NCBI GenBank assembly: GCA_012270965.1
Contig: JAAXHJ010000026.1
Span: forward strand, 1 to 41,723
Origin: Candidatus Palauibacter poriticola
GTDB lineage: Bacteria > Gemmatimonadota > Gemmatimonadetes > Palauibacterales > Palauibacteraceae
DNA length: 41,723 nt
Reading direction: 5' to 3'
Position numbers and translations under genes: made by a program. The notes under the pieces are model-generated. The model ran no database searches, was not told the origin of the DNA, and worked only from the letters and a program-made list of their open reading frames with translations. Below are positions 17,806 to 32,379 of the stretch, one piece after another; positions within the stretch are counted from its first letter, which is position 1; each line of letters starts with the position of its first letter.

Positions 17806-19803
17806 ATGGTGAAGATGACAGCGAGGACCGCATGCCGGAGGTGGGGCGGCGCAGGAGCCGCCGTGCTCGCGGCACTCGCCGTCGGCACCGCGTGCGGGAG
17901 AGACCTGACGAGTCTGGATCCGGCCTCCTTCCCGCCCGAGGCCGAGATCTTCTACGACGATTTCGGTCCGGGACTCGAATATTCGGCTTTCGGGGGGTCC
18001 AAGGTCGACGCGCTGGACATCGAGCGCGACGAGGTCTACCGCGGGACCGCTGCCCTGCGATTCACCGTTCCCGCACCGAGCGATCCAGCGGGCGGTTTCG
18101 CGGGGGGCGCATTCTTTTCGACGGTGCCCCGGGACCTCTCCGGGTTCGACGCACTCACCTTCTGGGCGCGCGCGAGCACGGCCGCCACGCTGGACCGGGT
18201 CGGGATCGGCAACGACAACACGGACTCCTCCCGGTTCCCTGCCAATCTTGACAACGTGCCCCTCTCGACCCGCTGGATGAAGTACGCGCTCCCCCTGCCC
18301 CTACCCTCGGTGCTCACCGAGGAGCGCGGACTCTTCCTTGTTGCGGACGCGTCGGAGTATGAGGTCGGCTACGACCTCTACTTCGACGACGTACGGTTCG
18401 AGCGGCTCGGCACGATCGCGCATCCGCGGCCGGAGATCCCCACCCAGACGGTTAGCGGCGAAATCGGCGGCACGCTGACGGTCCACGACACGCGGGTGAT
18501 CTTCGACGTGAACGGGACCGACGTGACGGTGGGGGCCGCGCCCTCGTACTTCACCTTCACGTCGTCGGACCCGGCCGTCGCTTCGGTGTTGCCGGACGGC
18601 TCGATCTCGCTGCTCCGCGCGGGCACCACCACGATCACGGCCACACTCGGATCGACCCCCGCTGCGGGAGCGCTCACGGTCAACATCGATTCCCCGCCGT
18701 CGGGCGTGCCTCCCGTGCCGGTGGTGCCGGCAGAGGATGTCATTTCCCTGTTCAGCGACGCCTACGACGACGTCCACGTCGACACCTGGTCGGCGGAGTG
18801 GGACCAGGCGGACGTGGCAGACGTGGTGCTGGCGGGGAACCCGGTGAAGAGGTACGGCAACCTCGCCTTTGCGGGGATCGAGTTCACGTCGTCGCCGATC
18901 GACGCGACATCGATGACGCACATCCATGTGGATCTGTGGACGAATGACGCCTCGGACTTCCGCATCAAGCTGGTGGACTTCGGGGCCGATGGGGCCTTCG
19001 GCGGGGGCGACGACCGCGAGCACGAGATCTCCCTCGGTCCAGCTTCGACGCCCTCGATCGCGCCGCGAAGCTGGAACACGCTGGACATTCCGCTGGAAGC
19101 CTTCAGCGGACTCGGAACGCGCGGCCACCTCGCACAGCTGATCATCTCCGGTGCGAGCCCCACCGTCTATCTGGACAACATTTTCTTCTTCCGAACCGAG
19201 ACGCCCGATCCGCCCGATCCGTCTGGCCCGCCCGAGCCCGCGCCCTCGCCGACCGATGCGGCGGCGGACGTCATCTCGCTCTTCAGCGACGCCTATTCGG
19301 ATGTCGCGGTCGATACTTGGTCGGCCGAGTGGGACGTGGCCGACGTGGAGGACGTAGCGATCGCCGGCAACGCGGCGAAGAAGTACGCGAACCTGGTCTT
19401 TGCCGGCATCGAATTCACGTCGCAGACCTTGGACGCGTCGGGCATGTCGCACTTCCGGATGGACATCTGGACGCCGAACGAGACGGCGGGGGCGTCATTC
19501 AAGGTGAAGCTGGTCGACTTCGGCGCCAACGGCGTCTACGACGGGGGCGGTGACGACAGCGAGCATGAAGTCACGATCCGGGCCGCCGATGGGTTGGCCA
19601 CGGGCGAGTGGGTGCGACTCGACCTCCGCTTGGCGGACTTCACGGGGCTAGCGGCGAAAGAACACCTCGCACAGCTGATCATCTCGGGAGACCTGAACAC
19701 GGTGTATGTGGACAATGTCTACTTCCGGCGGCCCGCAGGAGAGGCCGCGCGAGTGCGCCCCACCCGACCCATCAACAGAGACCCAATCGGAGAGAAGCCA
19801 TGA
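17806..19803 (+). CDS. Modular surface glycan-binding lipoprotein-like protein (two 'FSDAY' modules)
   Basis: The 665-residue product is probably exported: a basic N-terminus and hydrophobic run 'GAGAAVLAALAVGTAC' with a weak lipobox cysteine. Order of parts: an N-terminal beta-rich jelly-roll-like domain ('AEIFYDDFGPGLEYSAFGGS' to 'YDLYFDDVRFERL'), a Big2-like Ig domain ('FTFTSSDPAVASVLPDGSIS'), then two copies of a module of about 155 residues starting DVISLFSDAY and ending 'VYLDNIFFF' / 'VYVDNVYFR', separated by a Pro-rich linker. No catalytic motif is seen, so a glycan-binding role at the surface is inferred. Related modules occur next to GH16 enzymes in marine bacteria, to my knowledge. 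ATG 17806 and ATG 17815 are both possible starts. The stop overlaps the next start (ATGA). Confidence 0.8.
   Translation: MVKMTARTACRRWGGAGAAVLAALAVGTACGRDLTSLDPASFPPEAEIFYDDFGPGLEYSAFGGSKVDALDIERDEVYRGTAALRFTVPAPSDPAGGFAGGAFFSTVPRDLSGFDALTFWARASTAATLDRVGIGNDNTDSSRFPANLDNVPLSTRWMKYALPLPLPSVLTEERGLFLVADASEYEVGYDLYFDDVRFERLGTIAHPRPEIPTQTVSGEIGGTLTVHDTRVIFDVNGTDVTVGAAPSYFTFTSSDPAVASVLPDGSISLLRAGTTTITATLGSTPAAGALTVNIDSPPSGVPPVPVVPAEDVISLFSDAYDDVHVDTWSAEWDQADVADVVLAGNPVKRYGNLAFAGIEFTSSPIDATSMTHIHVDLWTNDASDFRIKLVDFGADGAFGGGDDREHEISLGPASTPSIAPRSWNTLDIPLEAFSGLGTRGHLAQLIISGASPTVYLDNIFFFRTETPDPPDPSGPPEPAPSPTDAAADVISLFSDAYSDVAVDTWSAEWDVADVEDVAIAGNAAKKYANLVFAGIEFTSQTLDASGMSHFRMDIWTPNETAGASFKVKLVDFGANGVYDGGGDDSEHEVTIRAADGLATGEWVRLDLRLADFTGLAAKEHLAQLIISGDLNTVYVDNVYFRRPAGEAARVRPTRPINRDPIGEKP
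18736..19731 (+). repeat. Two tandem copies of the FSDAY carbohydrate-binding-like module
   Basis: The copies start at 18736 (DVISLFSDAYDDV) and 19267 (DVISLFSDAYSDV). Conserved positions in both are the SDAY start, 'VDTWSAEW', 'YxNLxFAGIEFTS', 'KLVDFGA', 'EHLAQLIISG' or 'GHLAQLIISG', and the closing 'VYxDNxxF'. The pattern is that of a beta-sandwich module with several exposed aromatic residues. Confidence 0.85.
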
Positions 19804-22800
19804 ACTCGCTCTGCCACCGTTCGTTTCCGGTCCGGCGGTTGCCGGAATCTTCCGCGCGGCACCCCTGGTTCGCGCGATCCCGGGCTGGCGCGGCAGCCGC
19901 TCTCGTCGCCTGTACCGTGCTGGCGTGCGGGGGTGACGATGATCCTGGCCCCGTCGCCCCGCCGACGCCCGCGGCCACGACCATCGAAGTGGCCCCGGCG
20001 GCGGCTCAGCTCACAGCCCTGGGCCAGACCGTCCAGTTGAACGCCACCGTGCGCGACCAGAATGGAGGCGTCATGTCCGGAGCGTCCGTCACCTGGACCT
20101 CCGGGGACGCAGCGGTCGCAACGGTGGACGCGGCAGGACTGGTGACCGCAATGGCGACGGGCACGGCGACGATCACCGCTTCGTCGGGCTCCGCGAGCGG
20201 CACGGCGTCCGTGACCGTGACGCAGGCGCCCGCCCAGGTCTCGGTCACCCCGGAGTCGGCGACACTCGCCTCGGTCGGGGACACGGTGCGGTTCACCGCC
20301 AAGGTACAAGACGCGAACGGAAACGCGATCGCGAACGCCACGGTGAACTGGGCCTCGGCGGACGAAGGGGTCGCGACGGTGGACGAGATGGGGCTGGTCA
20401 CCGCGGTAGGCCCCGGCACGGCGATGATCGAAGCGATGTCGGGCACGGCCGGCGGCAGCGCAACCGTCGCGGTCATGCAGGAAGCGGCGACGCTCACGGT
20501 CACGCCCGACTCGCTTCGTCTGACGGCGCTTGCCGAGCAGAGGCATCTCGCCGTGGAAGCGACCGACGCCAACGGGAACGCGATTGTCGAGCCCGTAGTC
20601 AGTTGGGCATCGGACGATGAGGGCGTGGCGACGGTTGACGCCGCCGGGGTCGTGACCGCGGTCGGCAACGGCGAGACCACGGTCACCGCGACGTCCGGAG
20701 GCGCGAGCGCGAGCGCAGCCGTGACCGTCATGTCTCAGGCCGTTCCCTCGGTCGGACCTCCGGCGCCAATGCACCCGGCGGACAGCGTGATCTCGCTCTT
20801 CAGCGACGCCTACGACGACGTGTCGGTGGACACCTGGTCGGCGGATTGGGACGAGGCCGAGCTCACGGACATCGAGATCGCGGGCAATCCGGCCAAGCTG
20901 TACACGAACCTCTCCTTCGCGGGAATCGAGTTCACGTCGGAGACCGTGGACGGGACGGGCATGGACTACTTCCGCATGGACATCTGGACACCGGATGAGA
21001 CCGCTCTGCCGGCGGCGTTCAGGGTGAAGCTCGTGGACTTCGGCGCGGACGGCGCGTTCGGGGGTGGAGACGACAGTGAACACGAGGCGACGATCACGAC
21101 CGCCGAGGGGCTGGCGTCCGAAGAATGGGTGCAACTTGACCTGTGGCTGAACGACTTCGCGAACCTCGCGTCGCGGGCGAACCTGGCGCAGTTGATCATC
21201 TCCGGAGGCCCGAACACGGTCTACGTGGACAACGTCTACTTCCGGCAAGGTGCTGCGCCGACGCCGGAGCCGGAGCCGACCGAGCCGGCGCCGACGCCGG
21301 AAGACGCGGCGGATGACGTGATCTCGCTCTTCAGCGACGCCTACGACGACGTGGCGGTGGACACGTGGTCGGCGTCGTGGGATCAGGCTGCGGTGGAGGA
21401 CGTGGAGGTTGCGGGTGACGCAGTGAAGAAGTACACGGGCCTGACGTTCGCGGGCATCGAGTTCACCTCGTCGACGCTGGACGCCTCCGACATGACGCAT
21501 TTCCGGATGGACATCTGGACGCCGGACGAGACGGCGTCGGCGGCGTTCAAGGTGAAGCTCGTGGACTTCGGGGGGGACGGTGTGTGGTCCCCCGCCGTCG
21601 ATGACACCGAACACGAGGTCACGATCACGGCCGCCGAGGGATTGGCGACTCGTGAGTGGGTGTCCCTGGACCTGTCGCTCGGGGACTTCGCCGGTCTCGC
21701 GTCGAGAGAACACCTCGCGCAGCTGATCATCTCGGGCGACCCGAACACGGTCTACGTGGACAACGTCTACTTCCGCGGCGGAGAGCCGCCCGCCGCGCCC
21801 GAAGCGCCAGCCGCGCCCGCGCCCACGCCGAACCGCTCGTCGGACCACGTCATTTCCGTCTTCAGCGACGCGTACACGGACGTCACGGTGGACACCTGGT
21901 CGGCCTCGTGGGACCAAGCCGACGTTGAGGATGTGGTGATCGAGGGCGACACCGTGAAGAAGTATACGAACCTGACGTTCGCGGGCATCGAGTTCACGTC
22001 GCGGACCATCGACGCCGAGTCGATGACGCACCTGCACTTCGACGTATGGACCCCGGACCCGACCGACGACCCGGCCGCCTTCAGGGTGAAGCTGGTCGAC
22101 TTCGGTGCGGACGGCACGTTCGGCGGAGGCGATGACGCGGAGCACGAGGTCTCGCTGACCGCCAACTCGGATCCCGCGCTGAGCACGGGCCGGTGGGTCA
22201 GCTACGACCTGCCGCTCGCCAACATGACGAACCTCACCGCGCGGGGCCACCTCGCCCAACTCATCATCTCGGGCGATCCGAAAACCGTGTTCCTCGACAA
22301 CATCTACTTCTTCGAGCCGCCGCCCGGCGAGCCGAGCGAGGCGGCCCCGGCACCGTCGCACGCCGCCGACAGCGTCATCTCGTTCTTCAGCGACGCCTAC
22401 GACGACGTGACGGTCGACACCTGGTCCGCCACGTGGGACCAGGCCGACGTCGAAGATGTCGATATCTCGGAGAACGCCGTCAAGAAGTACACGAACCTGA
22501 CGTTCGCGGGGGTCGAATTCACTTCGCAGACCGTGGACGCCACGGACATGACGCACTTCCGGATGGACGTCTGGACGCCCGACCCGACCGGCGCCCCGGC
22601 CGCCTTCCGCATCAAGCTTGTCGACTTCGGCGCCGATGGCGCGTTCGGCGGGGGCGACGACTCCGAGCACGAGATCTCGTTGACCGCGGCGTCGGAACCA
22701 GCGGCGCTCGCGACGGCCCGGTGGGTGAGCTTCGACATACCGCTCTCCGAACTCGCCTCACTCGCGAGCCGAGGCCACCTCGCGCAGCTGATCATCTCGG

Positions 22801-22847
22801 GCGATCCCAACACCGTGTTCGTCGACAACGTGTACCTGCGCAAGTGA
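19800..22847 (+). CDS. Large modular surface glycan-binding lipoprotein-like protein (three Big2, four FSDAY modules)
   Basis: The 1015-residue product has a signal region 'GAAAALVACTVLAC' with a good lipobox (VLAC), then three Big2 Ig-like domains of about 85 residues ('VTWTSGDAAVATVDAAGLVT', 'VNWASADEGVATVDEMGLVT', 'VSWASDDEGVATVDAAGVVT'), which usually act as stalks holding a binding domain away from the membrane. Four tandem copies of the FSDAY module follow. No glycosidase signature is present. ATG 19800 overlaps the upstream stop by 4 nt (ATGA) and follows GGAGAG. With its neighbour it seems to replace the SusD/SGBP role of Bacteroidota glycan loci; this is inference. Confidence 0.82.
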   Translation: MNSLCHRSFPVRRLPESSARHPWFARSRAGAAAALVACTVLACGGDDDPGPVAPPTPAATTIEVAPAAAQLTALGQTVQLNATVRDQNGGVMSGASVTWTSGDAAVATVDAAGLVTAMATGTATITASSGSASGTASVTVTQAPAQVSVTPESATLASVGDTVRFTAKVQDANGNAIANATVNWASADEGVATVDEMGLVTAVGPGTAMIEAMSGTAGGSATVAVMQEAATLTVTPDSLRLTALAEQRHLAVEATDANGNAIVEPVVSWASDDEGVATVDAAGVVTAVGNGETTVTATSGGASASAAVTVMSQAVPSVGPPAPMHPADSVISLFSDAYDDVSVDTWSADWDEAELTDIEIAGNPAKLYTNLSFAGIEFTSETVDGTGMDYFRMDIWTPDETALPAAFRVKLVDFGADGAFGGGDDSEHEATITTAEGLASEEWVQLDLWLNDFANLASRANLAQLIISGGPNTVYVDNVYFRQGAAPTPEPEPTEPAPTPEDAADDVISLFSDAYDDVAVDTWSASWDQAAVEDVEVAGDAVKKYTGLTFAGIEFTSSTLDASDMTHFRMDIWTPDETASAAFKVKLVDFGGDGVWSPAVDDTEHEVTITAAEGLATREWVSLDLSLGDFAGLASREHLAQLIISGDPNTVYVDNVYFRGGEPPAAPEAPAAPAPTPNRSSDHVISVFSDAYTDVTVDTWSASWDQADVEDVVIEGDTVKKYTNLTFAGIEFTSRTIDAESMTHLHFDVWTPDPTDDPAAFRVKLVDFGADGTFGGGDDAEHEVSLTANSDPALSTGRWVSYDLPLANMTNLTARGHLAQLIISGDPKTVFLDNIYFFEPPPGEPSEAAPAPSHAADSVISFFSDAYDDVTVDTWSATWDQADVEDVDISENAVKKYTNLTFAGVEFTSQTVDATDMTHFRMDVWTPDPTGAPAAFRIKLVDFGADGAFGGGDDSEHEISLTAASEPAALATARWVSFDIPLSELASLASRGHLAQLIISGDPNTVFVDNVYLRK
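20781..22843 (+). repeat. Four tandem FSDAY modules
   Basis: Copies begin at 20781, 21315, 21843 and 22368. Each is about 155 residues and separated by Pro/Ala/Glu-rich linkers. DNA similarity between copies is visible by eye (for example the repeated ttcagcgacgcctacgacga), so recombination between copies is possible. The third and fourth copies share 'WTPDPT' where the first two have 'WTPDET', suggesting successive duplication of pairs. Confidence 0.85.
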
Positions 22848-22898: not shown

Positions 22899-24125
22899 AT
22901 GCCATCCGGTAGGCGTCCGCGTCCCGCCGCCGTGTTGGACAACGATCTGACCAGGACAGTCCTAAACGTGGTCTGGAAGCGGCGCGAGATATCCCGCGCC
23001 GAGATCGCGCGCGACTCGGGACGGTCCCGCTCCACCATTTCCGATGTTGTCGGGCGGCTCCTTGGCACGGGTTTGGTGGCTGAGGTGGGGAGCGGAGAAA
23101 GCCGGGGAGGGCGGCGTCCCATTCTGGTCGGGTTCCAAGACCAGGCCGGCGTGATTTTGGGTGTGGATGTGGGAGCAACCCATGTCTCGGTGATCCTCAC
23201 GGACCTCCGCGGGCGGACGCTGGCCTGGCGCGAACGCGCCCACCCCGCACACGGCGATCCCAAGGGTGCCGAGGCCGTCATTGCGGCGCTTGGGGAGGCT
23301 TGCCTGGCCGAATGGAACGGGGAACGGTCGCGACTCATGGGTATCGGCGTGGCGGTACCCAGCCCCGTCGATCCCGCCTCGCCGGACCGGGTGCTCGAAC
23401 GGGTGTTGCCCGCTTGGCGCGGGCATGGGGTCTTGGACCGGCTCAAGACGGCGTTCGGCGTGCCCGTGTTCGTGGACAACGACGCCAACCTCGGCGCGGT
23501 GGCGGAACGCTGGTGGGGCGAGGCGGTCGGGATCGACGATTTCGTGTATCTGAAGGTCGCCACCGGGGTGGGGGCGGGCCTCATGATCGGTGGAAGGATC
23601 TACCGCGGGGCCACCGGGGTCGCCGGCGAAATCGGTCACGTGGCGATCGACCCCGGTGGACCCGAGTGCGTATGCGGGAACAACGGCTGTCTCGCGACCC
23701 TTGTGGGCACGCGCCAGCTCGTCGACCGCGCCCGCGCCCTTCTGAAGCACTTCCCGGACAGTGCTCTCGCCGGGAGCGATCCGGACATCCGCGCGATTGA
23801 GGACGCCGCGCTCCGTGACGACCCGCTCGCCCTGCAGGTCGTCAACGAGGCCGCGCTTCGCCTTGGCATCGTCGTCGCCGGCGTGCTCAACGTGCTCAAT
23901 CCCAGCTCGGTGATCATCGGCGGGAGCCTTGCGCGGGCAGGCACCCGGCTGGTGAGACCGCTCCGCGAAGCTGTCGCCACCCGCACGCTCGTGGATTCGG
24001 CGGCGGCATCCGAGATTCGAACGAGCGATCTGGGCGAACGCGCGGTGGCGTTGGGAGCCGCCACGCACGTACTGGTTGCGGCGCTCGCAAATCCACGCCT
24101 CTTTCCCTCCGCAAACTCGGCATGA
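22899..24125 (+). CDS. ROK-family transcriptional regulator (NagC/XylR type)
   Basis: The 408-residue product has an N-terminal winged HTH ('REISRAEIARDSGRSRSTIS', about residues 28-47) and a ROK sugar-kinase-like domain: phosphate loop 'GVDVGATHVSVILTDLRG', 'VGAGLMIGGRIYRGATG', 'EIGHVAIDPGGPECVCGNNG' with the zinc-binding Cys pattern CxCGxxGC, and 'LNVLNPSSVIIGGSLA'. ROK regulators sense a sugar and release their operator. It sits inside the glucan operon, 51 nt after the large modular protein, and its stop overlaps the GH16 start by 4 nt (ATGA). The palindromes at 17714 and 32098 are the likely targets (inference). No clear ribosome-binding site precedes ATG 22899. Confidence 0.9.
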   Translation: MPSGRRPRPAAVLDNDLTRTVLNVVWKRREISRAEIARDSGRSRSTISDVVGRLLGTGLVAEVGSGESRGGRRPILVGFQDQAGVILGVDVGATHVSVILTDLRGRTLAWRERAHPAHGDPKGAEAVIAALGEACLAEWNGERSRLMGIGVAVPSPVDPASPDRVLERVLPAWRGHGVLDRLKTAFGVPVFVDNDANLGAVAERWWGEAVGIDDFVYLKVATGVGAGLMIGGRIYRGATGVAGEIGHVAIDPGGPECVCGNNGCLATLVGTRQLVDRARALLKHFPDSALAGSDPDIRAIEDAALRDDPLALQVVNEAALRLGIVVAGVLNVLNPSSVIIGGSLARAGTRLVRPLREAVATRTLVDSAAASEIRTSDLGERAVALGAATHVLVAALANPRLFPSANSA

Positions 24126-24928
24126 CCTCCACCGAACACCGGCTCGCGGTTTTTGTCCTCGCCGCCTGGCACATCGGCTGCGGCAGCCTCGGCACGGAGC
24201 CGAACCCCGACTGGACCCTCGTCTGGAGCGACGAGTTCGATGGTCCGGCCGGGCAGCTGCCCAACCCCGCCAACTGGGCGTTCGACGTGGGCACCGACTG
24301 GGGTAACCGGCAGCTCGAGTTCGACACCGACCGGCCTGAGAACGTGTCGCTGGACGGCGAGGGCAACCTGGCGATCACCGCCCGCCGGGAATCCTACGGG
24401 GGCAGCGCCTACACGTCGGGAAGGATCAAGACGCAGGGCCTGTTCGAGCAGGCGTACGGCCGCTTCGAAGCGCGCATCCGGCTGCCCCTCGGACAGGGCA
24501 TCTGGCCCGCGTTTTGGTTGCTGGGCAGGAACTTCGCCACGGTAGGCTGGCCCGAGTGCGGCGAGATCGACGTCATGGAATACCGTGGCCAGGAGCCGAC
24601 GATCGTCCATGGCACCGTACACGGACCCGGGTACTCCGCGGGCCGCGGCCTCACTGCCCGCTACCTGCTCCCCGGGGACCGCTTCGACACGCGCTTCCAC
24701 GAGTTCGCGATCGAGTGGACGGAGGAGCGCATCGTGTGGTTCGTGAACGGCCAGCGGTATCTTACCGTCGACCGAGACGACCCGCCGGGCCGCTGGGCCT
24801 TCGACCAGCCCTTCTTCATCCTACTGAACGTCGCCGTGGGTGGCACCTTCGTCGGACCTCCGAACGAATCGACGAACTTCCCGCAGTCTATGCTGGTCGA
24901 CTGGGTGCGCGTCTATCAGGCCAAATGA
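24122..24928 (+). CDS. GH16 endo-beta-1,3-glucanase (laminarinase-type), lipoprotein
   Basis: The 268-residue product has a short signal with lipobox-like 'HIGC' (Cys20) and one GH16 jelly-roll domain: 'WTLVWSDEFDGP', 'WGNRQLEFDTDRPENVSL', 'YGRFEARIRLP', 'GIWPAFWLLG' and the catalytic ExDxxE motif 'ECGEIDVMEYRG' (nucleophile Glu148, acid/base Glu153). The one-residue bulge (EIDVME) fits beta-1,3- or mixed-linkage glucanases rather than agarases or carrageenases. 'WVNGQRYLTV'-type and 'FFILLNVAVGG' blocks complete the fold. Unlike many marine laminarinases it has no attached binding module; those are supplied by the neighbouring proteins. It cleaves the polymer outside the inner membrane. Confidence 0.92.
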   Translation: MTSTEHRLAVFVLAAWHIGCGSLGTEPNPDWTLVWSDEFDGPAGQLPNPANWAFDVGTDWGNRQLEFDTDRPENVSLDGEGNLAITARRESYGGSAYTSGRIKTQGLFEQAYGRFEARIRLPLGQGIWPAFWLLGRNFATVGWPECGEIDVMEYRGQEPTIVHGTVHGPGYSAGRGLTARYLLPGDRFDTRFHEFAIEWTEERIVWFVNGQRYLTVDRDDPPGRWAFDQPFFILLNVAVGGTFVGPPNESTNFPQSMLVDWVRVYQAK

Positions 24929-24931
24929 TCC

Positions 24932-27049
24932 GTGAGCCACCGGACGGCCCCCGAAGACCGCATCTCCTTCCCGCACAAGATCGTCTACGGTATCGGCGGG
25001 TTCACGAACAACCTGCTGGCGCAGGGTATCGGCAACATGATGGCCGTGCTGACCCTGGCGCTGGGCATGGACTTCCGGGCAGTCGGACTCCTCGGCGGCC
25101 TCCCTCGCTTCTTCGACGCGCTCACCGACCCCCTCGTCGGTTTCGTGTCGGACAAGACGAGATCCCGGTGGGGGCGGAGGCGACCGTTCCTCTTCATCGG
25201 CGCGATCTCGGCGGGAGTCATCTTCGCGCTGCTCTGGCAGATGCCGGCACCGACCCAGTTCAGGCTCAAGTTGGTCGACTACGGCGCAGACGGAGTCTAC
25301 GGCGCCAACCAGGCGGACGAGTCCGCGGGCTGGCTGGCGGCCGCGGGCGATGCTCTTCGAGCGATCTTCACGGTGGAGGCCGTCGACGACTCCGAGGACG
25401 AAGTCAGCGTCCGCCCGCCGGGGTTGGTCACAGGTACCTGGGTGAGTTTGGACCTGCCCCTCGCCGACTTCGACGAACTCGCCACTCGCGCTCATCTCTC
25501 GCAGATCCTGATCTCGGGTGACCTCGCCGAAATCTACGTGGACAACGTCTACTTCTACCGTTCCTCCGACACGGAGACGGAGGAGCCGACTTCGGGGTCC
25601 ACGCCGGCGGTTTCTCCCGGACAGGATGTAGAAGGCCTCGCGGCACCGAACATCGCCGCGCCGACGCCGACGGTACCGCCGGTAGACGTGATCTCGCTTT
25701 TTAGCGGCGCCTACGAAGACATTCCGGTGCAGTCATGGTCCGCCCACCCGGACGAAGCCCAGGCGGCGGACGCCGAGGCCGGTGGAGACGATGTCAAACA
25801 CTATACGGGCCTGCGGCTGGCCACGATCGACTTCGGCGCAAACCCCGTTGACGCCCGTGGTATGACGCACATCCACATGAACATCTGGACCCCCGAGGAA
25901 ACCGGTCAGGGCTGGAGCCAGCGCAGCTACTTCTGGTACTTCCTCATCGGATCGTTCGTCTTCTTCCTCGCCTACACTGTCTTTGCCACGCCCTGGGTGG
26001 CGCTCGGGTACGAACTCACCCCCGACTACAACGAGCGCACCCGGCTGATGGGCGTACAGAACTTCGTATCCAACACCGTTTTCGTCATCGGTCCCTGGTT
26101 CCTCGCAATCGTGACGAACGCGGCGTGGTTCCGAAACCAGATGGATGGGGCCCGGTTTCTGGCGCTGGCGATCTGCGTGACGACCATCGCGCTGGGCGTG
26201 CTGCCCGCGATCTTCCTCCGTGAGCGCGTGGTCGCGGGAAACGGCGGCGCAGGATCGGACCGGGACGGCGGGGGCGCGGACCGGGACGGCCCAGGCCCGG
26301 GAGAAAGCACCGTGGAGTTCCTCCGGGGGCTGTGGCAAACCGTAAGGACCGGTCCCTTCCTGATGCTCTGCATCGCCACCTTCCTGATGTTCAACAGCTT
26401 CATCATGATCTCGCAGTTCCAGTTCTGGGTGTTCGCCTACTACGTCGCCGGCGGTAACGTCGCGGAAGGGGCGGGCCTCGCCGGAGTGGTCGGAAGCCTA
26501 GGCACCGTCACCGGCTTCCTGGTGATCGCCATCGTCACCTGGCTGGGGGCTAGGATCGGGAAGAAGAATGCGTTCTTCGTGTCCACCGGCATTTCGATGC
26601 TCGGCTACGCGTTGAAGTGGTTCTGCTACACGCCCGAGTATCCGCTGCTCGCGCTGTTGCCCGCCCCGTTCCTAGCTTTCGGACTGGGCGGACTGTTCAC
26701 TCTCATGGGGTCGATGATCGCCGATGTGGTCGACCTCGATGAACTCGCCACCGGCGAGCGCCGCGAGGGAATGTTCGGATCGGTCTTCTGGTGGATGGTG
26801 AAACTCGGCCAGAGCGGCGCGATCCTGGTCGGCGGGTTTCTTCTCTACTCGACGGGTCTCGATGCCTCGCTCGGCGCGAACCAGCCCGATGCGACAATCT
26901 TCTGGCTCCGGTTCTACGATGCGTTCGTGCCGCTTGCCGCCTCCGCGGTCGCGATCTACGCCGTCTACAGGTACCCGATCACGGAGCGGAGCGCGCTGGA
27001 GGTTCGGAACGAGCTGGAGCGGCGGCGGGGGGTGGCGCTGCCCGCATAG
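24932..27049 (+). CDS. GPH-type (MelB-like) sugar:cation symporter with an inserted FSDAY glycan-binding module
   Basis: The 705-residue product is a glycoside-pentoside-hexuronide symporter: 'FPHKIVYGIGGFTNNLLAQG' (TM1), 'PRFFDALTDPLVGFVSD', the family's cytosolic loop 'KTRSRWGRRRPF', TM3 to 'LLWQMPA' (residue 106), then TM4 'YFWYFLIGSFVFFLAYTVFA', 'ALGYELTPDYNERTRLMG' and the remaining helices. Relatives are about 450-500 residues and join 'LLWQMPA' directly to 'GWSQ'. Here about 220 residues (107-326) intervene. The loop follows TM3, whose preceding loop is the conserved cytosolic one, so the insert should be periplasmic. The frame is open throughout. The start is GTG 24932, 3 nt after the GH16 stop. 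It would import oligosaccharides made by GH16. Its stop is 1 nt from the stop of the convergent GH3 gene. Confidence 0.9.
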   Translation: MSHRTAPEDRISFPHKIVYGIGGFTNNLLAQGIGNMMAVLTLALGMDFRAVGLLGGLPRFFDALTDPLVGFVSDKTRSRWGRRRPFLFIGAISAGVIFALLWQMPAPTQFRLKLVDYGADGVYGANQADESAGWLAAAGDALRAIFTVEAVDDSEDEVSVRPPGLVTGTWVSLDLPLADFDELATRAHLSQILISGDLAEIYVDNVYFYRSSDTETEEPTSGSTPAVSPGQDVEGLAAPNIAAPTPTVPPVDVISLFSGAYEDIPVQSWSAHPDEAQAADAEAGGDDVKHYTGLRLATIDFGANPVDARGMTHIHMNIWTPEETGQGWSQRSYFWYFLIGSFVFFLAYTVFATPWVALGYELTPDYNERTRLMGVQNFVSNTVFVIGPWFLAIVTNAAWFRNQMDGARFLALAICVTTIALGVLPAIFLRERVVAGNGGAGSDRDGGGADRDGPGPGESTVEFLRGLWQTVRTGPFLMLCIATFLMFNSFIMISQFQFWVFAYYVAGGNVAEGAGLAGVVGSLGTVTGFLVIAIVTWLGARIGKKNAFFVSTGISMLGYALKWFCYTPEYPLLALLPAPFLAFGLGGLFTLMGSMIADVVDLDELATGERREGMFGSVFWWMVKLGQSGAILVGGFLLYSTGLDASLGANQPDATIFWLRFYDAFVPLAASAVAIYAVYRYPITERSALEVRNELERRRGVALPA
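25250..25909 (+). other. Circularly permuted FSDAY module inside the symporter
   Basis: Order within the insert is: C-terminal half of the module ('FRLKLVDYGADGVYG' to 'EIYVDNVYFY', residues 109-209), a Pro/Thr/Glu-rich linker of about 41 residues, then the N-terminal half ('DVISLFSGAYEDIPVQSWSA' to 'MTHIHMNIWTPEETG', residues 252-325). In the neighbouring proteins the halves are in the opposite order. The break falls exactly between 'WTPEET' and 'FRVKLVDFG'. Relative to its neighbours the copy is diverged ('SGAY', 'LATIDF', 'LSQILISG') and has an extra stretch after 'GVYG', yet stays in frame. Confidence 0.88.
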
Positions 27050-27050
27050 G

Positions 27051-28853
27051 TCAGTCTGGCCGCAATCCATAGCCGCGTGGAAAGAGCACTCCGTTGCCGC
27101 CCGTCCCGACTCTTCCATTCACGCCGGGCATCTCGCTCGGCCACGACATCGGCAGCCGGCCGTTGAAGGGGTGGTGCCCGAACAGGACATCGGCGACGCC
27201 GGCCCCCTCCGAGCCCGGCAGCCACGCGGCCACGAAGGCCGACGACGCGGCCAGCTCTTCGTTCACTACGAGCGGCCGTCCCGAGATCAGCACGGTCACC
27301 ACGGGGATCCCCCGGGCAGCCAGTTCGCGTATGGTTCGCAGGGCCTCCGGGTGCCGCGCCGCGAATTCCAAGGTGTCGCCGTACGGTTGAAGCGTGCCGG
27401 GGGCCACCGACACGTGCGCCCCCGGACGCACGGGGCTCGGGTGACGGATGTCGCCCAACCCCTCCGCGTACGGCTGCTCGCCGACGATAACCACGCCCAC
27501 GTCGAAGTCCCGCGCATCCGAGATCTCCCCCTCGCCCTCCCACAGCACTGCCTGCGGCGCCACGGCGCGGATCCCCTCCCACATCGACGTGCCTCCCTCG
27601 ATGGCGGCGTTGCCGGACACGCCCTGCCACTCGATGGTGAAGCCGCCGCACTGCCGCCCGCGGTCGTGTGCGGCGGATCCCGCCACCAGGATGCGCGCGC
27701 CCTTGTCCAGCGGTAGCCGCCCGTCTTCGTTCTTGAGCAGGACCAGCGACTTCCGCACGGCGTCGCGGGCCACCGCGCGGTGCTCGCGCGACCCGAACCC
27801 GATGCCGTTCGACGCCGGCCGCGCCGCCGGCCGCGGGCGCTCGAAGAGGCCGCACGCAAACTTTACCCGCAGAATCCGCGCGACCGCGTCGTCGATTCTC
27901 GCGATCGGCACGACCCCCCGCTTCACCTGCTGCTTCAGTTCGGCGATGACCTCCCGCCACGTCTCGGGCACCATCAACATGTCGATCCCGGCGTTCACCG
28001 CCATTGCGGCGGCCTCACCGTAGGCGGCGGCGAGTGGATCGACACCGTTCCAATCCGACAGCACAAACCCCGTGAACCCCATTTCCCCCTTTAGCAGATC
28101 CCGGATCAGGTAGCTGTGGGCATGGCACTTCTCGCCTCTCCAGCTGCTCAGCGACGCCATCACGGTGGGCACTCCGGCCTCCACCGCCGCCGAGTACGGC
28201 GCCATGTGCACGCGGCGCAGCTCCTCCTCGTCGACCACCGTGTCGCCCTGGTCCACACCCGCCTCGGTGCCTCCGTCGCCGACCCAGTGTTTCGCACACG
28301 CCAGGATCCCCTCTCCCTGCAGCCCCCGCACGATCCTCGCCGCGTACCCTGCCACCACGCCGGGATCCTCCGAGTAGCTCTCATAGGTGCGCCCCCAGCG
28401 CGGATCGCGGGCCACGGCCAGCGTAGGCGCGAACGTCCAGTCGACGCCCGCCGCCAGAACTTCCCGGGCCGTGACCCGCCCGGCCCGTTCGAGCAGTTCG
28501 GGATCGCCCGCCGCCCCCAGCCCGATGTTGTGCGGGAAGACGGTGGCGCCCCGGACGTTGGCGTTACCGTGGACCGCGTCGACGCCGTAGAGGATGGGAA
28601 TCGCCAAGTGGCCGGCGTCCTCCTCCATCGACGCCGCCCAGTACGCGTCGTTCATCGCGACCCAGTCCGACGGGCGGTTGTCGGCGGGGCAGGAACCGCC
28701 GCCGCTAAGCACCGAACCGATGTGGTATGCCTTCACCTCGGCCGGAGTGACGTGGAGCCGCTCCGGCTGCGTCATCTGCCCGATCTTCTGGTCGAGACTC
28801 ATGCGCGCGAGGAGCGCCTGGACCCGCTCCTCGACGGCACCCGCTGGCGACAC
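27051..28853 (-). CDS. GH3 beta-glucosidase, cytoplasmic
   Basis: The 600-residue product is a two-domain GH3 enzyme: 'IPILYGVDAVHGNANVRGA', 'ARDPRWGRTYESYSEDPGVV', 'ACAKHWVGDGGTEAG' (Lys188-His189) and the nucleophile Asp267 in 'GFVLSDWNGVDPL'. The second alpha/beta domain follows ('KSLVLLKNEDGRLPLDKG' to 'PLVVNEELAASSAFVAAWLP'), with no C-terminal FnIII domain. The GTG start (28853) sits in TAGTG, overlapping the upstream glycosidase stop, and gives no signal peptide, so the enzyme should act in the cytoplasm on imported oligosaccharides. The frame is open to 28925 but that would overlap the upstream gene by 73 nt. Confidence 0.92.
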   Translation of the reverse strand: MSPAGAVEERVQALLARMSLDQKIGQMTQPERLHVTPAEVKAYHIGSVLSGGGSCPADNRPSDWVAMNDAYWAASMEEDAGHLAIPILYGVDAVHGNANVRGATVFPHNIGLGAAGDPELLERAGRVTAREVLAAGVDWTFAPTLAVARDPRWGRTYESYSEDPGVVAGYAARIVRGLQGEGILACAKHWVGDGGTEAGVDQGDTVVDEEELRRVHMAPYSAAVEAGVPTVMASLSSWRGEKCHAHSYLIRDLLKGEMGFTGFVLSDWNGVDPLAAAYGEAAAMAVNAGIDMLMVPETWREVIAELKQQVKRGVVPIARIDDAVARILRVKFACGLFERPRPAARPASNGIGFGSREHRAVARDAVRKSLVLLKNEDGRLPLDKGARILVAGSAAHDRGRQCGGFTIEWQGVSGNAAIEGGTSMWEGIRAVAPQAVLWEGEGEISDARDFDVGVVIVGEQPYAEGLGDIRHPSPVRPGAHVSVAPGTLQPYGDTLEFAARHPEALRTIRELAARGIPVVTVLISGRPLVVNEELAASSAFVAAWLPGSEGAGVADVLFGHHPFNGRLPMSWPSEMPGVNGRVGTGGNGVLFPRGYGLRPD

Positions 28854-31800
28854 TAGATGGCGATGTGAAGGTAGGTCCGGATCTCCCACTCGCGCCCCAG
28901 ATCTCCGCCGATATCCGGGTTGCACTCCATCCTGCCGAATTCATCCGGGCTCAGCCCGGGACAGTAGCGCGGAGAGTACTCGTTCAGGGACCGCCAGGTG
29001 GCGCGCACGCCGAAGCGGGTCTGCGGCAGGTCGAACCAGTCGGGGATCCCCAGCGTGAAGGAGATGTCGCCCGTGAGCTGCAGCGGGAAGGTGAGGTTGA
29101 AATCGCGGTGGTAGTCGTACGGCCCCCAGTCGTTGAACCGTGCCATCCCCTGGAACTTGAGCGACCCGCTGATCACGCGCAGGTCGATCCCGGCGCGCTG
29201 GATCACGCGGTCGTCATCTCCGTTCGGCTCGCCGGTTCCCGCGTATACGTCGGCGATCAGGCCGGGGCCCGCTCGCCGCTTCGATACGACGCGCGCCTTG
29301 ACTTCCCACAGATCGCGCGGGGGAGGGGCGCCGGGGAAGGCAAAGGTGGAGCGTCCGTCGGCGAAGATCCCGATCCCGGCGTCCTGGGTGGTCGGAAAGT
29401 TGTAGTACACGAAGCCGAGTGACGCCGCGAGGGCCGCGTCCTCCCGTCGGTCGCTGTCCCAGTTGTACATCCAAGTGGCCGGCGTGGGGTCGTAGGTAAA
29501 TAGGATCTCGGCCGCCCGGGTCTCCCGGTTGCCACGCACCGCGAAGGGGTCGTCGAGGACGTTCCGCGGCCGCCCCGGCGCCGGCGCATCGACCGGGACC
29601 GGCCCGACGAGCGGCTTGCGCCAGAGGAAGTTGGGCGCGACCTGCCAGTTTCCCGCGAGGACCGTGAAGCCGGTGATCACGTTGCGCTGGTTGCCGCTTC
29701 CGGTATCCTTTAGAGTCCAGCCGGTGAAGGTCTGGGTCTGCGTCATGCCGCCATCGGCAACGAGCCCCATGGCCGCACCCTGCAAGTACCAGTTCACGCG
29801 CCCCGTCGCGTAGCTGATCTTCGCCTTCGCGCCGAATGCGTCCGAGGTTCGAATCTCGTCCTGCAGGACCCGGTAGCTGCCAAGCTCTCCGTCGACCACT
29901 TGGAAGGTCTCGCCGACCTTGGTACCACCGGACATGATGCCGCCTACCTCGAACGTCGCGCCGTCCCGCGTCGTGGCCAAATGCACTGTGGCCTTGCGTG
30001 TGGGGGGCAACGGAATCGCGAAGGAACTCGTCGCCGCGCCAGCCTCCGCCAAGTCCTCCTGATACATGACGGCGGTCTCGACGGGCCCGATCCGGGACTG
30101 GTGCTTGACGAGCACAGCGGGGTTGGCGCCCCACCACAGTTCGGGACCGATCGCCACCTTCAGTCCACCGAGGAGGCGCTTGCCCGCGATCTCCATCCCG
30201 ACCGGCGCCAGCCCGTTGTAGATGTCAATGTTCGGCCCGTAGTTGGCTTCCTGGTACAGTCCGAAGAAGTCTCCTTCGTAGCCCCAGTGGTAGTGTCCGG
30301 TACGGTAGAACCCCTCCAGATGGAACCACTTGTCGTCCCAGGACACGCCGGCGTTGTAGACCTTGAGCCGTTCGATGTCCCGCAGCGCGAAATCCTCGCC
30401 GTCGACCCTGACGTTCCGCGGACGGCCCCGGTTCTCGTAGAAGAGTTCGTCGATCGGGTTCGTGGGTACGTCGCCAAGCGCATTGAACGACACGTTCGCG
30501 AGCATGTTCCGCGTGGGTCGTGCCGCGAAGTCGGCGTAGAAGGACTGCAGCCTGTCGAAGCCGCGGAAGCTCGGGTACGAGGGATTCCGCTCAGGTGGCA
30601 CCTCCGGGGTGCTCACCAGGGACCCGCCGGTGCTGTAGGTCTCCAGCTCGATGCGCACGCCCCTCAGGTGGACCCGGTCGAGTGCCGACGCAAGCAGCGC
30701 GGACCGGTCACCTTGCGCTTGTAGTGCCATGGCGGCTGGCTGGATGTTGGCGAAGTGCTCGCGGATGGCCGTGAGGTCGGTGCCGGGCGCGTACGGGTCC
30801 AGGGTGTACGCCTCCCGCAGGGCATAGTAGGCGGCGCGCGGGAAGATTTCGTAGAGGTTGTTGAACTCCGTGGGGCCCTTGGCGACGATCCCCCACCACT
30901 CTTCGTTCATGTTGTTCTCCCCCGCTACGAAATCCTCGACGTAGCCGCCGTTCGCCCAGGAGGCGTTCGTGTCCTGGATGTCGAGCCGGTCCTCCTGGCC
31001 GAATTTCCACCAGCCGTCCGTCCACTGGAAGGTGAATCCGCCGATCGAGTTGCCGACCATGCCCTTCCCGGCCGACTGCTCGTAGATCTCGCGCCATTGC
31101 CCGAGCAGGTACCTCGCCTGGGTAACCTGGTCCTCGCGCATGTTCCTCGCGTCCCACGCATCCGCGCCGAACTCGGTGAACATCACGGGGCGATCAAGCA
31201 CGTCGCGCACCTCTTGGAACAACTGCCCGAAGGAAATGCCCCTGTACACGTTGGCACCGAACACGTCCACGTCCGGAACCTCCTCGTGGAGGATGTCGAG
31301 GTACTGGAGATCGCCGTTGGCCATCGCGACCGGACGCGACGGGTCGATCTCCTTGATCCGCCGGGCCACCTCCCCGAACAGCGAGTACATGTGGCGCGCG
31401 CGGACCGCGTTCGCTTCGCCCTCGGGCAGGTCCTCCGTCTCGGCCGAACTCCACGCCAGCCCGTAGTTGTTCTCGTTGCCGAGGAGCCACATGAGCAGGC
31501 CGGGCGTGTCCTTGAACTCGTCTACCATCTCCTCAATCTCAGCCTTCAGCACCTCCCGGGCGCGCGGGTTCGAGTAGTCCGTATTCGCGCTGAAGACGCC
31601 GCCCACGGTTACGCCGTAGCGGCCCAGCGCATGGTTCAGGATCGTGTGGATGCCGTAGCGCTCGTAGATGTGCCGAACCCACCTCGGCGTGATCCCCACA
31701 TAGGTGCGGATCGCATTGCCCCCCATGGCCTTGAGCACCGACATCTCGCGCTGCAGCGCCGCCTCGATGATGTGGTCCGGCTCGGTCCAGAAGTTGTAGT

Positions 31801-32068
31801 TGTAGGTGGTGCCGCGGGGGAAATAGTCCCAGTTGACGCCTTGGATCATCATGTCCCGGCCGTCCACCCGAAGGCGCGTGCCGGAACCGTCTCTGACGAG
31901 TTCGATGACGGGCATGGGGCCCGCGGCGTCCTGCGCGGCAGCGGGGGGAAGTGGCGCGAGCACCACGAGCAGGAGCGCCGACAGCAACCCGCGCAGCCCC
32001 CCGTAGCCCTTGGGAGCAACCGGAACCGACGCGGTGAAACGGTCGGTGTCAGTACGAATCGAACTCAT
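28853..32068 (-). CDS. Exported clan GH-A glycosidase with a long beta-rich (barrel-like) C-terminal region
   Basis: The 1071-residue product has a signal peptide ('LLSALLLVVLAPLPPAAAQD') and a TIM-barrel glycosidase domain (about residues 55-470): 'MIQGVNWDYFPRGTTYNYNF', 'MGGNAIRTYVGITPRWVRHI', acid/base Glu199 in 'WLLGNENNYGL' and nucleophile Glu299 in 'PVMFTEFGADAWDA', the clan GH-A pattern, closest to GH2-type barrels. From about residue 560 to the end the sequence is Gly/Tyr/Trp-rich with alternating residues ('KWFHLEGFYRTGHYHWGYEG', 'NWYLQGAAMGLVADGG'), ending 'REWEIRTYLHIAI', which suggests an outer-membrane beta-barrel or large beta domain. Similar 'glycosidase' proteins exist in marine Bacteroidota, from memory. 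ATG 32068 follows GGGAG and lies 29 nt from the operator palindrome. Confidence 0.8.
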   Translation of the reverse strand: MSSIRTDTDRFTASVPVAPKGYGGLRGLLSALLLVVLAPLPPAAAQDAAGPMPVIELVRDGSGTRLRVDGRDMMIQGVNWDYFPRGTTYNYNFWTEPDHIIEAALQREMSVLKAMGGNAIRTYVGITPRWVRHIYERYGIHTILNHALGRYGVTVGGVFSANTDYSNPRAREVLKAEIEEMVDEFKDTPGLLMWLLGNENNYGLAWSSAETEDLPEGEANAVRARHMYSLFGEVARRIKEIDPSRPVAMANGDLQYLDILHEEVPDVDVFGANVYRGISFGQLFQEVRDVLDRPVMFTEFGADAWDARNMREDQVTQARYLLGQWREIYEQSAGKGMVGNSIGGFTFQWTDGWWKFGQEDRLDIQDTNASWANGGYVEDFVAGENNMNEEWWGIVAKGPTEFNNLYEIFPRAAYYALREAYTLDPYAPGTDLTAIREHFANIQPAAMALQAQGDRSALLASALDRVHLRGVRIELETYSTGGSLVSTPEVPPERNPSYPSFRGFDRLQSFYADFAARPTRNMLANVSFNALGDVPTNPIDELFYENRGRPRNVRVDGEDFALRDIERLKVYNAGVSWDDKWFHLEGFYRTGHYHWGYEGDFFGLYQEANYGPNIDIYNGLAPVGMEIAGKRLLGGLKVAIGPELWWGANPAVLVKHQSRIGPVETAVMYQEDLAEAGAATSSFAIPLPPTRKATVHLATTRDGATFEVGGIMSGGTKVGETFQVVDGELGSYRVLQDEIRTSDAFGAKAKISYATGRVNWYLQGAAMGLVADGGMTQTQTFTGWTLKDTGSGNQRNVITGFTVLAGNWQVAPNFLWRKPLVGPVPVDAPAPGRPRNVLDDPFAVRGNRETRAAEILFTYDPTPATWMYNWDSDRREDAALAASLGFVYYNFPTTQDAGIGIFADGRSTFAFPGAPPPRDLWEVKARVVSKRRAGPGLIADVYAGTGEPNGDDDRVIQRAGIDLRVISGSLKFQGMARFNDWGPYDYHRDFNLTFPLQLTGDISFTLGIPDWFDLPQTRFGVRATWRSLNEYSPRYCPGLSPDEFGRMECNPDIGGDLGREWEIRTYLHIAI

Positions 32069-32097
32069 GGCGGCGCTCCCAAGCGTACCCGAACACC

Positions 32098-32120
32098 CTT
32101 TGTTCGGTCGCCGAACAAAG
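32098..32120. promoter_or_regulatory. Palindrome upstream of the minus-strand glucan operon (candidate operator, copy 2)
   Basis: Arms CTTTGTTCGG (32098-32107) and CCGAACAAAG (32111-32120) surround TCG. The arms are identical to those of 17714-17738; only the 3-nt spacer and the flanks differ. It lies 29 nt upstream of the ATG at 32068, overlapping the expected promoter or leader, as repressor operators often do. Confidence 0.8.
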
Positions 32121-32379
32121 TGCGCGGGCGCTTCAACTCCTGTCAAGAAGACGAACCGGAAGTGGGCTGGCCGCGCCACCGTCAGCGAGGCACCGAGCAG
32201 CGAGAGCTCGCTCCAGGGATTCGGATAGGCGAAGAGTCGGCGCCCCTTCCCGAGCCGACGGCGCCCCCGTGGCCGGACGCCGAGCTGCCCGCTCGACCGG
32301 TAACGGGACGACGTACCGGCACACTACCTGCGCTCCGGGCGGATACGTAGCCCCCGGCAACCGGCGGATTTCTGACAAT

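Follow-up and report, generated by a model that had tools for sequence, protein, structure and literature searches.

A GPH-type transporter gene of Candidatus Palauibacter poriticola with a circularly permuted, carbohydrate-binding-like module in its predicted periplasmic TM3-TM4 loop

Secondary sugar transporters normally consist of 12 helices with no further domain. On contig JAAXHJ010000026.1 of Candidatus Palauibacter poriticola (assembly GCA_012270965.1), whose positions 1-41,723 are referred to here as the window, the gene for a GPH-type transporter contains a second domain, a permuted copy of the "FSDAY" module found repeatedly in two lipoprotein-like genes of the same operon. The preferred interpretation, with a probability of roughly 60%, is that this module resembles a carbohydrate-binding module (CBM), faces the periplasm from the predicted loop between transmembrane helices 3 and 4 (TM3 and TM4), and holds beta-1,3-gluco-oligosaccharides at the transporter entrance. 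Comparisons among genomes and proteins establish that the module is permuted and of full length, that it was inserted without loss into a 25-residue loop, that its carriers form one clade, and that it is under purifying selection. The 12-helix fold, the periplasmic side and the beta fold of the insert are predictions.

The insert is a permuted copy of a neighbouring module

The transporter gene and its parts are as follows.

24932-27049, + strand: GPH-type (PF13347) transporter gene with the inserted module; GTG start, 705 amino acids, no internal stop
24932-25249, + strand: N-terminal part of the transporter, residues 1-106, predicted TM1-TM3, with D62 and D66 (alignment to MelB; TM3 is 84-101 in the model)
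25250-25561, + strand: second half of the FSDAY module, residues 107-210, module positions 75-155 (six-module profile)
25286-25384, + strand: 33-residue stretch (approximately residues 119-151), where the standard modules measured have 7-12 residues; predicted helix at 135-146, low confidence
25562-25684, + strand: Pro/Thr-rich linker of 41 residues (211-251), joining the old C-terminus to the old N-terminus (profile; low model confidence at 213-231)
25685-25909, + strand: first half of the FSDAY module, residues 252-326, module positions 1-74 (six-module profile)
25910-27046, + strand: C-terminal part of the transporter, residues 327-705, predicted TM4-TM12 (Pfam, model, Foldseek)

The original prediction, made from the DNA letters, described an interruption of about 220 residues after "LLWQMPA", with the transporter resuming at "GWSQRSYFWYF"; the foreign stretch between these flanks is exactly 220 residues long (residues 107-326). 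It also equated the insert with the FSDAY module, of which the two lipoprotein-like genes together hold six copies. The count (two modules in the first gene, four in the second) and the match (44-61% identity; best E value 2e-34) held up, but the normal order of the module did not, as its halves are swapped. Aligned to a profile of the six modules, the insert gives module positions 75-155 (residues 105-210), the linker (211-251) and then positions 1-74 (252-326), which rules out a plain in-order module. Together the two halves cover all 155 profile positions. The score against the profile is 167.8 bits for the insert as found and 181.2 bits once it is reordered, when a single match (positions 1-106) spans the former break. 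By this profile comparison, the insert contains the whole of the operon's FSDAY module in circularly permuted form.

Of 33 insert-free relatives, 31 have 25 residues between the corresponding flanking positions and the other two have 29. The two flanks in the window measure 11 and 14 residues, a sum of 25. Given the 25-residue loop in 31 of the 33 relatives, the insertion is lossless, with all residues of the host loop retained. The model of a standard module puts the cut, at position 74/75, in the loop that connects strands 62-68 and 78-84, so that the new ends of the permuted module are loop ends.

The insert probably originated from the tandem FSDAY array in the same operon, as a fragment one period long that was cut at module position 74/75. 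Since an array cut inside a module yields a second half, a linker and a first half, the permutation would follow from the cut site. The neighbouring array is the likely source. In a quick tree of 130 modules (nine inserts and 121 standard modules, with approximate likelihood-ratio support, SH-aLRT, only; ten insert rows were chosen and P0106 was left out), the inserts group together with support of 100, and no donor module was identified.

Predicted structure and side of the membrane

The full transporter was modelled with AlphaFold2 from a 95-sequence alignment. The model (mean per-residue confidence, pLDDT, 80.1; predicted template-modelling score, pTM, 0.75) has 12 membrane helices, with the insert as a mostly beta domain between TM3 (84-101) and TM4 (330-362), in agreement with the placement that structure prediction had been proposed to check. 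Ten-residue blocks of the insert have pLDDT values of 64-92, except for 121-160 (30-50) and 211-240 (33-68); residues 121-155 are under 50. A Foldseek search with the model returned MFSD2A (E value 1.6e-11) and MelB (1.4e-8), both aligned across the insert over about 700 columns.

The loop between TM2 and TM3 (L2-3) carries six Lys or Arg residues, and the insert carries nine Lys or Arg and 37 Asp or Glu residues. Given the positively charged L2-3 and the acidic insert, the TM3-TM4 loop and its insert are likely on the periplasmic side. The periplasmic location claimed originally is thus upheld as a prediction, based on these charges and on the MelB/MFSD2A-like fold; a cytosolic loop is disfavoured, since charges and fold both point outside. 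A hydropathy scan (cut-off 1.2) found no hydrophobic stretch in the insert (maximum 1.06), which lends slight support to this side of the membrane; the scan also missed some of the helices in the model.

Foldseek depends on chain order, and the fold search for the module was therefore run in the standard order. For a standard module (window 21315-21776), modelled from 116 sequences with a pLDDT of 96.2, the predicted fold is a CBM11/CBM30-type beta-sandwich, which matches CBM11, CBM30, CBM8, CBM29 and the laminarin-binding CBM X584 (8qx6). Searching the PDB by sequence with the FSDAY module, as a single sequence or as a profile, returned nothing of note. At an E value of 0.01 or better, the 116 modules gave three Pfam matches to CBM_11 and one to CBM30, beside chance-like families, and the window's module matched neither family at this threshold. 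Because a sequence match is nearly absent, the FSDAY module is called CBM-like here and is not assigned to CBM11 or CBM30.

The transporter family

The transporter open reading frame (ORF) starts 3 bases past the stop codon of the preceding glycoside hydrolase family 16 (GH16) gene. Its 705-residue product matches PF13347 (MFS_2) with 184.7 bits, against a Pfam gathering score of 27 bits, in two stretches on either side of the insert. The closest solved structures by sequence are MFSD2A and MelB. These matches, together with the Foldseek result, bear out the description of the protein as a GPH/MelB-type transporter. Residues D62 and D66 align with D55 and D59, the Asp pair of the MelB cation site, and are invariant in the 95 sequences. 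The position of MelB D19, a sugar-site residue, is occupied by N27, so the substrate would differ from that of MelB. The NCBI gph model TIGR00792 scores 136.3 bits, under its cut-off of 231.35, and for this reason the protein is named GPH-type and is not placed in that NCBI subfamily. The insert is ruled out as the cause of the low score, since four insert-free relatives (161-188 bits) are likewise under the cut-off.

Distribution, phylogeny and selection

A protein search with the insert region gave 477 matches, of which 120 were listed and classified. Among these 120 there are 62 transporters, the window's own included, each carrying 210-250 additional residues with the module in the same order; the remaining 58 proteins contain several FSDAY modules and no transporter parts. 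At the level of genomes, 49 of 395 Gemmatimonadota have a match at an E value of 1e-60 or better. The insert is spanned in 20 of them and 28 look insert-free; the remaining one, G400, is a fragment that reaches into the insert and is counted with neither group. Fourteen of the 28 insert-free genomes were read in sequence (nine of L130-L139, and the five L014-L018) and the rest were judged by match coordinates; in G117 (L130) no N-terminal part was seen in frame, and G017 and G272 lie at contig edges. Three insert-bearing genomes (G046, G102 and G113) are single contigs; the numbered genomes and the named records overlap, L040 probably being G046 and L050 probably G102. Among 16 genomes of the same genus, the transporter is insert-bearing in G009 and G012 and insert-free in G013, and 13 have no match. 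The homologues with the same insertion that the original prediction suggested looking for thus exist, in databases and in genomes. Two genomes (G099 and G402) have two insert-bearing copies each. In two records (L052:7992-9932 and L129) the frame of the insert-bearing transporter is broken in the C-terminal part, through a sequencing error or because the gene itself is broken.

In a tree of 83 transporter cores (26 with the FSDAY insert, 17 with another insert described below, and 40 insert-free), each insert type forms one clade with support of 100/100. The FSDAY-insert clade contains no insert-free row, and insert gains amount to two changes in total, the minimum possible. The tree sampled 10 of the 62 FSDAY-insert and 15 of the 94 second-insert database transporters, and did not include L052, whose frame is broken, L001, which duplicates the window, or the distant rows L019-L024. 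It carries a warning of long branches joining one another, including that of the second-insert clade. Pairwise ratios of nonsynonymous to synonymous substitution rates (dN/dS) from 16 sequences are 0.24 and 0.32 for the insert halves, 0.16 and 0.17 for the flanks (the C-terminal flank taking in the fast L6-7 loop) and 0.44 for the linker, the highest value of any insert part. By these sequence-based estimates, the insert is under purifying selection, constrained though less so than the transporter.

The locus and its presumed substrate

The transporter lies among the following genes.

17806-19803, + strand: lipoprotein-like gene with two standard FSDAY modules (18736-19191, 19267-19728); start taken as the Met before a lipobox-like GTAC, our reading
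19800-22847, + strand: lipoprotein-like gene with Big_2 repeats and four standard FSDAY modules (20784-21245, 21315-21776, 21846-22313, 22371-22841); start also our reading
22899-24125, + strand: ROK-family regulator (PF00480)
24122-24928, + strand: GH16 endo-beta-glucanase-like protein (PF00722)
27051-28925, - strand: GH3 beta-glucosidase-like protein (PF00933, PF01915)
28853-32179, - strand: GH158-like TIM-barrel protein with a long C-terminal part (GH158 structure 9oro, E value 1.5e-8; PF02836)

No SusC or SusD was recognised among the 18 ORFs scanned, a subset of those in the window. Past the barrel of the GH158-like protein (28853-32179, - strand) lie some 600 residues without a Pfam match at an E value of 0.1, which look like outer-membrane beta-barrel sequence. 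Relatives of this protein are present in many of the compared loci.

Several related transporters are fused to enzymes. One GPH-type transporter (L074:6431-9769) has a full GH3 beta-glucosidase at its C-terminus, and two others (L075:7980-10355 and L084:7980-10340) have a GH17-like domain there, expected to be cytosolic. A further C-terminal GH17-like fusion (L061:441-2834) falls just under the Pfam cut-off (27.7 versus 28.2). The GH3 and GH17 fusions are independent hints that beta-1,3-glucan oligosaccharides are the cargo.

A second family of inserts in the same loop

Two transporters, L106:1456-3444 and L077:7953-9944, carry a different insert, of about 180 residues, in this TM3-TM4 loop. 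The L077 locus has the same FSDAY-ROK-GH16 setting. A search with the L106 insert region found 94 proteins (P0122-P0215), all of which match PF13347; among their names are several Marinimicrobia and one Planctomycetota. In the 90 that have both flanks, 162-416 residues lie in the gap; in 13 of the 90, all longer than 700 amino acids, the domain is carried twice, the second copy being split in three. The idea that this domain is a distant FSDAY module is unsupported (hhalign probability 0.1; E value 0.51). A separate clade with a different domain at the same place argues that the loop of such transporters gained a domain twice. The chances are about even for the wider proposal that GPH-type symporters gained a TM3-TM4 extracytoplasmic domain at least twice independently (the permuted CBM-like module, cut from the adjacent tandem array, in Gemmatimonadota; the other domain, single or in tandem, in Neomarinimicrobiota and others), making a one-chain machine for capture and import of beta-glucan oligosaccharides.

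Proposed function and alternative explanations

In the proposed mechanism, the GH16 and GH158-like enzymes would release short beta-1,3-glucans, which the module would bind. The module would thereby raise the oligosaccharide concentration at TM4, the cavity-lining helix directly after the insert. The transporter, with its conserved MelB-type Asp pair, would import the oligosaccharides by cation symport, and the cytosolic GH3 enzyme would split them.

The module's residues were compared between 62 inserts and 116 standard modules. W18, K38, Y40, W68, D84, D96, D97, E101, W115, D149 and N150 are kept in at least 98% of the inserts, and W22 is retained in 33 of 62, being a proline in the window's insert. 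D16, E49 (D in 61 of 62), F63, F85 (Y in 60) and H100 (D in 56) are replaced, so that binding may or may not have been retained. The standard-module fold also matches ciliary proteins and complex I assembly intermediates, for which we know of no sugar binding. Three distant carriers (L123, L126 and L127; 64-65% identical to the window protein) are closer to standard modules, with W22 and "EHE" present, which suggests drift or retuning of the module after insertion. The inserts also have an extension of their own: the spacing from "LVDxG" to "DDxExE" is 32-36 residues in 69 of 69 inserts and 7-12 in standard modules (80 of the 116, plus 120 occurrences in listed FSDAY proteins). This insert-specific segment of about 25 residues has amphipathic stretches in several of the nine inserts looked at, and in the model it forms a low-confidence helix. 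The original description of a glycan-binding module therefore stands in part. The CBM-like fold and the beta-glucan locus agree with it, while the permutation, the extra segment and the changed conserved residues do not.

A possible but rather unlikely alternative is that the periplasmic module serves for docking, pairing with the FSDAY lipoproteins or with GH16, or with the polymer they hold, and so clustering the degrading machinery at the transporter. The FSDAY family is present in both lipoprotein-like genes, and FSDAY genes lie upstream in 14 of 17 insert-bearing loci, while the remaining three do not extend far enough to show whether such genes are present. The change of conserved module residues fits docking as well, and the excerpted text of PMC4597091 provides a precedent in PepT1 and PepT2. 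However, we know of no contact between FSDAY modules, and the same FSDAY and GH16 genes lie beside insert-free relatives; the FSDAY-GH16-transporter core is found around insert-free transporters in Gemmatimonadota, Calditrichota, Ignavibacteriota and others.

It is less likely again that sugar binding has been lost and that the chief role of the module is to shape the periplasmic mouth or to stabilise the fold, the extension resting on the transporter or membrane. The uniformity of the changes at conserved module positions is consistent with such a role, as are the presence of the extension in every insert measured and its amphipathic stretches. Yet most conserved module residues are retained, and the extension is of low confidence in the model.

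The domain is very unlikely to be a neutral passenger, retained since its removal needs an exact deletion. Relatives with a locus of this kind have no insert, the linker is fast-evolving, and the insert evolves faster than its flanks, but purifying selection on both halves, a 26-row clade in which no row lacks the insert, and a domain without detectable relationship at the same loop of another clade all speak against a passenger. An artefact of assembly or binning from repeated modules has a negligible probability: although the window belongs to an assembly of 99 contigs (3.56 Mb, 94% complete) and holds six related repeats, no other place in the genome exceeds 61% identity to the insert over a short stretch or 52% over long ones, and the recurrence of the same junctions, whose failure to be spanned had been named as a refutation, in 20 genomes (three single-contig) and 62 of the 120 listed proteins rules an artefact out for the family.

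Capture of beta-1,3-gluco-oligosaccharides at the transporter entrance remains the preferred interpretation. The case concerns a binding-type module within a symporter chain, directly before TM4, kept across the clade sampled, and makes it possible to test directly if a symporter works better with a tethered binding domain. It is also a natural example of a circular permutation explicable by cutting a tandem array. The TM3-TM4 loop accepts domains of about 160-420 residues in nature, a hint for the engineering of sugar uptake, and the locus is a pointer to beta-1,3-glucan use in Gemmatimonadota.

Comparison with known systems

Like MelB and other PF13347 symporters, the transporter has a predicted 12-TM fold, a PF13347 score above the cut-off, a SDKTRSRWGRRRP-type L2-3 loop and an aligned Asp pair. 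Unlike them, it has N27 in place of D19, a 220-residue insert in L3-4 and a TIGR00792 score below the cut-off. The FSDAY module in its standard order shares a predicted fold with CBM11, CBM30, CBM8, CBM29 and X584 (8qx6), but has hardly any sequence match to them and is permuted in the transporter.

Keyword searches of open-licence papers found no description of a GPH-type transporter with a binding-domain insert. GlnPQ and OpuA are ATP-binding cassette (ABC) importers with tethered substrate-binding domains of the solute-binding-protein fold. If the proposed function is correct, the transporter would resemble them in having a binding domain in the same chain, and would be a secondary-transport counterpart of such importers. 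It differs from them in being a secondary transporter with an internal CBM-like domain.

The locus can be compared with the beta-1,3-glucan loci of Bacteroides, for which the excerpted text of PMC7157763 gives an enzyme set of GH16_3, GH158 and GH3. Judged from that excerpt, both have GH16, GH158-like and GH3 enzymes and more than one glycan-binding-type lipoprotein; unlike the Bacteroides loci, the locus in the window includes a ROK regulator and a GPH-type transporter.

The closest precedent for the insertion itself comes from mammalian PepT1 and PepT2 (POT/SLC15 family), which, according to the excerpted text of PMC4597091, have beta-sandwich domains between TM9 and TM10; for the extracellular domain of PepT1, gathering of a partner enzyme, trypsin, has been proposed. 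The original claim that no MFS transporter has such an insert was therefore too wide. As far as the excerpt goes, both systems place beta-sandwich domains within an MFS core at the junction of two triple-helix repeats. They differ in that the PepT domains are two immunoglobulin-like, trypsin-binding domains at TM9-TM10, in the C-terminal bundle, whereas the bacterial transporter has one permuted CBM-like module, located between predicted TM3 (84-101) and TM4 (330-362). The TM3-TM4 junction would be the pseudo-symmetric counterpart, in the N-terminal bundle, of the PepT TM9-TM10 junction.
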